Shown piece by piece: positions 29,743 to 33,417 of a DNA stretch of 64,000 nt. The DNA is from an uncultured SAR86 cluster bacterium. Its GTDB lineage: Bacteria; Pseudomonadota; Gammaproteobacteria; Magnimaribacterales; AG-339-G14. Position 1 is the first letter of the stretch, and the number at the start of each line of letters is the position of its first letter. A model generated the notes under the pieces. The model did no database searches and was not told the DNA's origin. It worked only from the letters and a program-made list of their open reading frames with translations. Both the position numbers and the translations under genes were made by a program. The stretch is taken from contig CACOBG010000001.1 in assembly GCA_902625415.1 (NCBI GenBank), forward strand, positions 62,001 through 126,000, read 5' to 3'.

Positions 29743-29819
29743 TGGTCGGGGTGGCGGGATTTGAACCCACGACCACTTGACCCCCAGTCAAGTGCGCTAC
29801 CAGGCTGCGCTACACCCCG
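29743..29819 (-). tRNA. tRNA-Pro (anticodon GGG), CCA encoded
   Basis: Minus strand CGGGGTGTAGCGCAGCCTGGTAGCGCACTTGACTGGGGGTCAAGTGGTCGTGGGTTCAAATCCCGCCACCCCGACCA; 7-bp acceptor, CTTGA/TCAAG anticodon stem, loop CTGGGGG. Confidence 0.96.
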
Positions 29820-30140
29820 TTAAGTTTTTAATATTTTTAAAACTTCTTTTAGAGATTCTATTATTTCTAATTCAAGCTCCAAAGAAAAATCTCCATCTTC
29901 CAAGACTTTTCTAATTGCCTTTACATTTAAGCCTCTCTCAGAGAGTTCTTTTATTTTTAAGAAAATAATCAAGTCCGATTTTTGGAACATTCTTCTATTA
30001 GAAATTCTTTTAATAGCAAAATATTTTTTAAATGCCTTTTCCCAATATCTCAAAATATGATCTTTTACACCTAATAAGCTACTTGCCTCTCCCATGGAAA
30101 AGTATTTTTGATCAGGTAAGCTGGCTAGGTTGATTTCCAA
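29820..30140 (-). CDS. MerR family transcriptional regulator
   Basis: [27 protein letters not shown]; conserved position downstream of ihfA. Confidence 0.9.
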
Positions 30141-30142
30141 TT

Positions 30143-30418
30143 TTACAAAGACTCTCTAAGTTTTTTTGATGCTTTAAAAGAAACAACATTTCTATCGGAA
30201 ATTTCATATGGTTCACCTGTTTTTGGATTTCTTCCAGGTCTACTCTTTTTATGTTTAATAACAAAATTTCCAAGCTTTGGAATTTTTATTTCTTCTCCTC
30301 TTTCTAAGCCTTTACTAATTTCTTCAAAATAAGCATTAACTATTTTCAAACAATCTTTTTTTGGAAGGCCTAGTTGCTCCCTTAATAAATTAACAATGTT
30401 TGCTTTGGTTAGAGTCAT
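30143..30418 (-). CDS. ihfA: integration host factor subunit alpha
   Basis: ORF; HU/IHF family; IKIPKLGNFVIKHKKSRPGRNPKTGEPYEI; directly follows pheT. Confidence 0.95.
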   Translation of the reverse strand: MTLTKANIVNLLREQLGLPKKDCLKIVNAYFEEISKGLERGEEIKIPKLGNFVIKHKKSRPGRNPKTGEPYEISDRNVVSFKASKKLRESL

Positions 30419-32437
30419 TTATCTTAAAATTGCTCCAAGTTTTTTCTGCATGCCAGAAATAATAAGATTAGCTTCTTTATTAATATCTTCATCAGATAAA
30501 GTTTTTTTATTTGAGCCCCACGAAACTCTGAAGGCGATACTTTTTTTACCATCGGAGATATTTTTACCATCGTAAACATCAAAAATTTTTGTGCTTATCA
30601 AAAAATTTTTTGATGAAATGTAAATGCAATTTTCTATTTGTTCATAAGAAACTTTATTATCAATTTCAAAAGAAAAGTCTCTTTGAGATATAGGATAAAT
30701 TGAAGGCGCTATTAATTTTCCAAGATCATTTCTTGGTAAAGATTCAACCTTTATTTCAAAATATAAGAATGCTTTATTAAGGCCAAGTAATTTTATAAAC
30801 CTTGGATTGATGCTCCCAACAGAGCCGATGAGCTCATTTTTAAGGTAAATGTCTGCAGACGCGTAAGGATGTAATAAATCATTTTGAGATTTTTTCCAAA
30901 AAATTTTCTCTATTCTGAATTCTGCGAAGAGATTTTCTAAGATTCCTTTCAAATAGTAAAAATCATAATTTTGATTTGTATTCCAATTTTTAAACTTTTC
31001 ATCATCGTAAATTAACCCGGCAAGATTTAATTCTTCCATGTGAGAATCGTTTGAGAAGGATTTACCCATTTCAAAAATACTTAAGAAATTTTGCCCTCTG
31101 TTAATATTAAATTCTAAATTTTCTGCTAGGCTGGGTAACAAAGAAGTTCTCAAGGTATTCAAGGAATTATTTAGAGGATTTTTTAAAGAAATACTTTTGT
31201 TCTCTATATCTAAATTTTCTAGAGCCTGTCTATCAAGAAAAGAATAGTTTATGACTTCATTGAATCCTTTGTTTGTCATAAAAGTTTTGATTTGATTAAT
31301 AAAATCGTAATCTGATTTTTCATAATGCTGAGTTATTGGATCGTTTTTAATTTGAGGTAAATTATCATAGCCGACAATTCTTGCTACCTCTTCAATTAAG
31401 TCCTCTTTAATCGATAAATCGAAACGATGACTGGGTACTTCAAAAGTTAAGTTGTTTTTATTTTTTTTGATCAATTTAATTTCTAGTCTTTTCAAAATAG
31501 ATTTGATTTTATTTTCTCCTAAATCGGTACCGAGTTTAAGATTTACATCTTCTGTAGAAATGTTGATGAGTTTTTTCTTAGGAAAATACTTATTTTTTAT
31601 TGTCTCGATATTAGAAATGTCTACCCAATAAATTTCTTGAATAATTGAGAGAGCCTCCTTTAAGGCATCCTCGTGAAGATTGAAATCAACACCTCTTTCA
31701 AATCTTTGCGACGCATCAGTCTGAAACCCATATCTCCGTGCTTTGCCTTTGATAATGTTGGGACGAAAAAAAGCAGATTCGATCAGAAAATTTTGTGTTT
31801 TTTTAGAAACTGAATGGTTTAAACCTCCTGAAATTCCCGCAAAAGCTATAGGTTGTTTTTCGTCAGCAATAACAAGGCAGTCTTTAGTAAGTTTAAGATT
31901 CTTTTCGCCTAAAATTTTTATCTGTTCTTTTGTTTTCGCAAACCTAACTTCAATATCTCCTTCAATTTTGTCTTGATCAAAAACATGCATTGGCTGACCG
32001 CTTTCTAACATAACAAAATTCACAATATCCACTAAGGGGTGGATGGATTGAATCCCGGCTGCTTTTAAAGTCTTTTTTATATAATACGGAAACTTCTTTT
32101 TTAATTTTAAATTTGAAATAGAAACGGCTGAGTAAGCTGGACATGCCTCTTTTGCTAACAATTTTATTTTTTTATTAAATTTGGTTTCGCCTTTGAAAAA
32201 GCTTTTTGTTACAGAAGAAAATTTCTTATCTTTGAATGCACAATAATCTCTCGCTAAACCTTTTACAGAAAAGCAATCTCCCCTATTAGGAGTTAAATCA
32301 AAATCAATTATCTTATCTCGTTGAAGAGACTTTATCTCATCAACTTCTATGCCGATTAATGTAAGATCTTCGCAAAGACTTTCGATTTTAGGTTTAGCCT
32401 TAATAGCATTAGTAATTCTTGAATATAAAACTTTCAT
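30419..32437 (-). CDS. pheT: phenylalanyl-tRNA synthetase beta subunit, apparently lacking the OB-fold tRNA-binding domain
   Basis: ORF; DFDLTPNRGDCFSVKGLARD, HPLVDIVNFVMLESGQPMHVFD, C-terminal FDX-ACB; GIEVDEIKSLQRDKIIDFDLTPNR shows no OB-domain insert. Confidence 0.95.
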   Translation of the reverse strand: MKVLYSRITNAIKAKPKIESLCEDLTLIGIEVDEIKSLQRDKIIDFDLTPNRGDCFSVKGLARDYCAFKDKKFSSVTKSFFKGETKFNKKIKLLAKEACPAYSAVSISNLKLKKKFPYYIKKTLKAAGIQSIHPLVDIVNFVMLESGQPMHVFDQDKIEGDIEVRFAKTKEQIKILGEKNLKLTKDCLVIADEKQPIAFAGISGGLNHSVSKKTQNFLIESAFFRPNIIKGKARRYGFQTDASQRFERGVDFNLHEDALKEALSIIQEIYWVDISNIETIKNKYFPKKKLINISTEDVNLKLGTDLGENKIKSILKRLEIKLIKKNKNNLTFEVPSHRFDLSIKEDLIEEVARIVGYDNLPQIKNDPITQHYEKSDYDFINQIKTFMTNKGFNEVINYSFLDRQALENLDIENKSISLKNPLNNSLNTLRTSLLPSLAENLEFNINRGQNFLSIFEMGKSFSNDSHMEELNLAGLIYDDEKFKNWNTNQNYDFYYLKGILENLFAEFRIEKIFWKKSQNDLLHPYASADIYLKNELIGSVGSINPRFIKLLGLNKAFLYFEIKVESLPRNDLGKLIAPSIYPISQRDFSFEIDNKVSYEQIENCIYISSKNFLISTKIFDVYDGKNISDGKKSIAFRVSWGSNKKTLSDEDINKEANLIISGMQKKLGAILR

Positions 32438-32439
32438 TG

Positions 32440-33417
32440 CTATTGAGATAGAAATTTTATGTCATTTGAAAACAGAGAACGCATGTCTTCTATTTCATAG
32501 GAAAGCTTGGCCATTCTTTCGATTCCCATTCCAAAAGCAAAACCAGAAAATTTCTTTGGATTCAATCCAGCCATATCAATTACGTTTGGATGCACCAAAC
32601 CACAGCCCATGATTTCTAGCCAATTTTTAGACTTTTTATCCAGAATATCCACTTCTGCAGATGGTTCTGTAAAGGGAAAATAAGAAGGTCTAAACCTGAC
32701 TTTGGTATCTAGCCCAAAAAAGAAATCTATAAAGGTCATAATTTCATTTTTAAGATGTCCAAAATTAATATTTTCATCAATAACTAGACCTTCTATCTGA
32801 TGAAACATGGGCGTATGTGTTTTGTCTGCATCACTTCGATACACTTTTCCAGGACAAATAATTTTTAAGGGTGCGCCTCTTTTTTCAATGGATCTAATTT
32901 GCACAGGTGAAGTATGTGTTCTTAAAAGATTTCCATTATCTAAATAAAAGGTATCGTGCATATCGCGAGCAGGATGATCCTTAGGAATATTCAAAGCATC
33001 AAAATTATAATAATCGCTTTCAATCTCAGGACCATCTTCAATCAAGTATCCCTTGGAAGAAAAGAAATCTGTTATCTTTTTGGTGGTTATAGTCAAAGGA
33101 TGAAGCTTCCCTTGAGATTTAAAAGAACCTGGAAGGGTTACATCGATTCGATCTTTTTCAAGGGATTCGTTGATAATTTGTAATTCAATCTTTTCTTGAA
33201 CGGAATTTAAAAGGTCTTCATAAAGACTTCTCAATTCACCAATTTTTTTTCCAAAAATTGGTCTTTCTTCTGAGGGTAAGTTTTTAATGTTTTTTGAGAG
33301 CTCAGTAATTCGCCCTTTTTTTCCAAGATACTTGACTTTGAGTTGATTCAACTCATCTTGCGAGACTATTTCTTGAAAATCTTTTTTAAGATTTGCTTTT
33401 AAAGCATCTAAATCCAT
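32440..33417 (-). CDS. pheS: phenylalanyl-tRNA synthetase alpha subunit
   Basis: ORF; HPARDMHDTFYL, THTPMFHQIEGLVID, FAFGMGIERMAKL. Confidence 0.97.
   Translation of the reverse strand: MDLDALKANLKKDFQEIVSQDELNQLKVKYLGKKGRITELSKNIKNLPSEERPIFGKKIGELRSLYEDLLNSVQEKIELQIINESLEKDRIDVTLPGSFKSQGKLHPLTITTKKITDFFSSKGYLIEDGPEIESDYYNFDALNIPKDHPARDMHDTFYLDNGNLLRTHTSPVQIRSIEKRGAPLKIICPGKVYRSDADKTHTPMFHQIEGLVIDENINFGHLKNEIMTFIDFFFGLDTKVRFRPSYFPFTEPSAEVDILDKKSKNWLEIMGCGLVHPNVIDMAGLNPKKFSGFAFGMGIERMAKLSYEIEDMRSLFSNDIKFLSQ

Follow-up and report, generated by a model that had tools for sequence, protein, structure and literature searches.

The window, a stretch of 64,000 nucleotides from an uncultured SAR86 cluster bacterium, carries pheT, the gene for the beta subunit of phenylalanyl-tRNA synthetase (PheRS), at 30419–32437 on the minus strand. 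It is one open frame of 672 aa, the length given in the sequence-only reading, which begins with ATG and is uninterrupted. The gene pheS (32440–33417, minus strand), which by its ORF and by domain and family models encodes a complete catalytic alpha subunit of 325 aa, ends 2 bp upstream of the pheT ATG, and directly downstream of pheT lies an ihfA-like gene (Bac_DNA_binding; 30143–30418, minus strand). A MerR-like ORF and a tRNA-Pro(GGG) gene directly follow ihfA (29746–30140 of the window, minus strand). The tRNA-Phe gene was normal by eye, with a GAA anticodon, A73 and CCA.

The B5, CLM and FDX-ACB domains of a bacterial-type PheT are all present by Pfam. In the order of the protein, on the minus strand, are the B3/B4 editing domain (residues 98–269, 31631–32146; PF03483 B3_4 match and alignment), B5 (residues 291–357, 31367–31567), the catalytic-like module CLM (residues 367–563, 30749–31339) and, at the end said to be retained, FDX-ACB (residues 579–672, 30422–30703). 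The motifs SGQPMHVFD and TDASQRFERG were also found. Against TIGR00472 (pheT_bact) the protein scored 586.1 bits, above the cut-off of 402.65, with only positions 158–798 of the profile covered. Acquisition of an archaeal-type PheT by transfer was ruled out, as the score against pheT_arch (TIGR00471) was 108.2 bits, below the cut-off of 282.65.

What is missing is B2, the N-terminal OB-fold tRNA-binding domain (tRNA_bind, PF01588), which is usual, not universal, in the pheT_bact class. Pfam gave no PF01588 match in the window PheT even at E<=5, while E. coli PheT, the positive control of this search, was matched at residues 45–145. In the multiple alignment, E. coli residues 39–152 (114 aa, ~342 bp) have no counterpart, and the two halves of B1, LTLIGIEVDEIKSLQ and RDKIIDFDLTPNRGDC, are directly joined. 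The join, GIEVDEIKSLQ/RDKIIDFDLTPNRGDC, is at ~32315–32332 on the minus strand (residues 36–41, KSLQRD), where full-length PheT has B2 and inside the range of 32,310–32,340 given beforehand. Likewise, when phmmer was run against solved PheRS structures, the window PheT from about residue 17–40 on corresponded to residues 130–160 of the full-length chains. The joined B1 of short PheT also matched, weakly, PF18262, the model of the uninterrupted archaeal/eukaryotic B1, as would be expected if B1 closes up without B2. An AlphaFold model of PheT, made with a 12-row alignment, was of too poor a quality for use (pLDDT 55.7, pTM 0.34). With the frame, the flanking domains, the operon neighbours and the editing residues all intact, the description of this gene as a clean domain loss and not a frameshift holds, and the window PheT is confirmed as a complete bacterial-type PheRS beta minus B2.

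The nearest named relatives of this protein (82–93% identity) are from SAR86 single-cell genomes and MAGs, and a survey of close relatives, in which the full domain would have spoken against a genuine loss, returned only short forms, independent single-cell assemblies among them. Within the window's family, each of the four genera has short PheT. Across the order, matches were obtained in 152 of the 203 SAR86 genomes, and among the matches listed no open frame exceeded 700 aa; where PheT was complete, in four SAR86 families and again with independent single-cell genomes included, it was always short, in frames of 632–700 aa. Because the short form extends across the order, the loss of B2 is older than its families, and the B2-less form is the ancestral one, fixed in each of the four SAR86 families sampled.

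We regard it as quite probable that the protein belongs, as beta subunit, to an ordinary bacterial (alpha-beta)2 PheRS, and that its B2, an OB fold of the EMAPII/Trbp type set into B1, disappeared in an ancestor of the SAR86 order, with the charging and editing cores kept. As to what B2 did, a K-x4-R-x3-S-x-GM signature is found in B2 of 25 of 27 full-length gammaproteobacterial PheTs, whereas the N-terminal region lacks it in all 80 short ones. Residues equivalent to its Lys, Arg and Ser make contact with the CCA end in Trbp111, Arc1p and T. brucei MCP1, and in the last of these they are required for deacylation (PMC12021450). Given that the signature equals the CCA-binding residues of Trbp111 and Arc1p, B2 is plausibly an appendage that grips the CCA end, which is consistent with the title of Roy and Ibba 2006 (Biochemistry 45:9156), where the domain is described as dispensable and as contributing to editing. 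The SAR86 enzyme would then charge tRNA-Phe as usual through the PheS core and FDX-ACB, and would clear Tyr-tRNA-Phe at B3/B4 without the extra OB barrel. Since the barrel bears a CCA-gripping signature, its loss should mainly weaken the rebinding of charged or mischarged tRNA and its delivery to the editing site, with some cost in the efficiency of handling mischarged tRNA and not in charging itself. Such a loss was probably tolerated, and then fixed amid shrinking proteins and genomes.

The state of the editing site bears directly on whether more than B2 has been given up. By alignment, N140, H151, G201, G204 and E220 of the window PheT are N254, H265, G315, G318 and E334 of E. coli, which we take to be the key PheRS editing-site residues. 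All five are identical in the 58 SAR86 sequences aligned (58/58) and in the 7 other short forms aligned (7/7), and within SAR86 this is true even of families ~30% identical to the window protein, so the SAR86 editing centre is under selection. A decay of PheRS editing as a whole under relaxed quality control, as in Mycoplasma, for which decayed PheRS editing has been reported (review PMC7373986), is therefore an unlikely account of the missing domain, and no degenerate B3/B4 residues of the defunct Mycoplasma type were seen at the five checked positions of the window PheT. In its favour are the contribution of B2 to editing stated in the title of Roy and Ibba and two other B2-less lineages, one of which has A, Q and T at positions 254, 265 and 334 (N254A, H265Q and E334T; locus L199, family f172), and the other H265Q (L200, f81).

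Another way in which B2 might have been dispensed with is compensation in trans, by a free OB protein split off the methionyl-tRNA synthetase (MetRS) that gives a grip on the CCA end to several synthetases, PheRS included, in the manner of Arc1p with two synthetases in yeast. PF01588 matches the window genome once, on contig C4, and 121 SAR86 genomes mostly once each. This match is the C-terminal domain of MetRS (metG_C_term, TIGR00399, above the cut-off), and a relocation of B2 to another gene is thus ruled out for the window genome, where the sole match is of this type. At the loci read in families f1, f3 and f4, the domain is a separate ORF of ~105–110 aa directly after metG (window genome, L001:1489–1821, minus strand, and C4:35262–35543; other loci, L176–L183 and L184–L188). 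Its start is conserved across genera, as ATG or GTG in ATGGATGA/GTGGATGA, where the ORF often shares 8 nt with the end of metG, and two f3 genomes have a metG frame that closes upstream of the OB start codon. The ORF is accordingly a gene of its own, and its origin from a frameshifted metG was ruled out on the same grounds. In the window genome, the frame of the metG core is interrupted close to a run of A (L001:2505–2560, minus strand). This is probably a sequencing error, since L183, a close relative, has an intact frame at that place. This detachment may be the more unusual fact in SAR86; split MetRS is known elsewhere, for example in Aquifex.

Compensation in trans gains from this arrangement, in which the sole PF01588 match of the window genome and of f1, f3 and f4 is the ORF after metG, and from the K/R/S signature, retained by the majority of the free SAR86 OB proteins that were read, with Lys in place of Arg in one of them. 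In f2, however, the domain is still fused to MetG (frame of 650–700 aa) and PheT is short nevertheless, so that the order-wide loss cannot be accounted for in this way; moreover, the free OB protein had no detectable pairwise match to B2 of E. coli PheT. We therefore hold this explanation to be very unlikely. A broader proposal, that f1, f3 and f4 reorganised their OB folds, PheRS losing its own and MetRS releasing its own, and that the one free protein now works in trans for several synthetases, as a general CCA-end chaperone or deacylase that would be the bacterial equivalent of Arc1p, is a long shot. In the f2 genus g8 there is a second PF01588 protein, which is CsaA-like (L191:536–874). 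Finally, a ~340 bp assembly or sequencing deletion in the window genome only, conceivable in a genome of 25 contigs whose metG core has a frame break at an A run not found in relatives, is refuted by the identical junction in SAR86 genomes that were assembled independently, from single cells and from metagenomes, at 82–93% protein identity and in four families, which leaves it with practically no probability.

The loss of B2 in the SAR86 ancestor, the reading we prefer, has parallels elsewhere in the class. Among 369 evenly sampled Gammaproteobacteria, the frames of the best matches were typically ~790–800 aa, and this sample and a follow-up by family gave short PheT in the families coded f40, f76, f108 and f138. 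As the class protein search showed best matches only, it missed diverged short forms, which were recovered by running a profile of the joined N-terminus over the same 369 genomes. This added f42, f81, f145, f166 and f172, all confirmed by alignment; in f166, the short-type N-terminus is within a longer open frame. In total, B2-less PheT was found in nine sampled gammaproteobacterial families besides SAR86, and the loss recurs in ~10 of the roughly 180 families sampled. In a sample of the phylum, the same profile gave no short form but that of the window among the matches listed. Within f108, PheT was short in 12 of the 13 genomes with PheT. One f108 genome, G956, has a PheT frame of 757 aa (L173) with a B2 region that has ceased to match PF01588 and may be a B2 in decay, among relatives without the domain.

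Fifteen of the 16 non-SAR86 genomes with short PheT are of 2.0 Mb or less, compared with some 92 of the 365 genomes sampled, a count that ignores kinship. Nevertheless, B2 is kept in the small genomes G481 (0.9 Mb) and G374 (1.0 Mb) and is absent in the larger G520, G947 and G948 (3.0–3.6 Mb), so genome reduction alone is an insufficient cause. The full-length PheT of G374 (L106) shows the opposite of the SAR86 pattern: B2 is kept, but H265 of the editing site has become Y and the K/R/S signature is damaged, with C for R. On trees built from the PheT core outside B2, whose backbone is weak, parsimony required 5 state changes in the first (3–5 in bootstraps) and 6 with larger sampling (5–6 in bootstraps). 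For the first tree, one clade of all short forms was compatible with the AU test (p 0.15, not rejected); recurrent loss of B2 is likely, not proven.

In the literature searched, no paper joining SAR86 and aminoacyl-tRNA synthetases was found under the terms tried, and the SAR86 isolate paper (PMC11582366) mentions neither pheT nor tRNA synthetases. The order offers a natural, order-wide B2-less PheRS with a constrained editing site in abundant ocean bacteria, which permits a direct test of the purpose of B2. With its recurrence mostly in genomes of 2 Mb or less, the loss of B2 is also a convenient case for asking which synthetase appendages get shed.

Compared with E. coli, the gene order and tight packing of the pheS-pheT-ihfA operon are the same, and B1, B3/4, B5, CLM, FDX-ACB and the editing residues are common to both PheTs, but the E. 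coli protein (795 aa) has B2 (PF01588, residues 39–152) and that of the window does not. A B2-less bacterial kind was already known, as many PheRS-beta of CPR bacteria are on record as missing the B2 OB domain (PMC5370408; for example, OGE14653.1); the window PheT resembles these, which belong to a different phylum, in missing B2 with the rest intact, a likeness drawn from their published description. The beta subunits of archaeal and eukaryotic cytosolic PheRS also have an uninterrupted B1 and no B2, and the joined B1 of the window recalls them in its weak PF18262 match, but, unlike them, the window protein is bacterial overall (586 bits for pheT_bact vs. 108 for pheT_arch). Lastly, the work on B2 that Roy and Ibba announce in their title is a laboratory experiment, whereas the B2-less PheT of SAR86 is a natural, fixed state.
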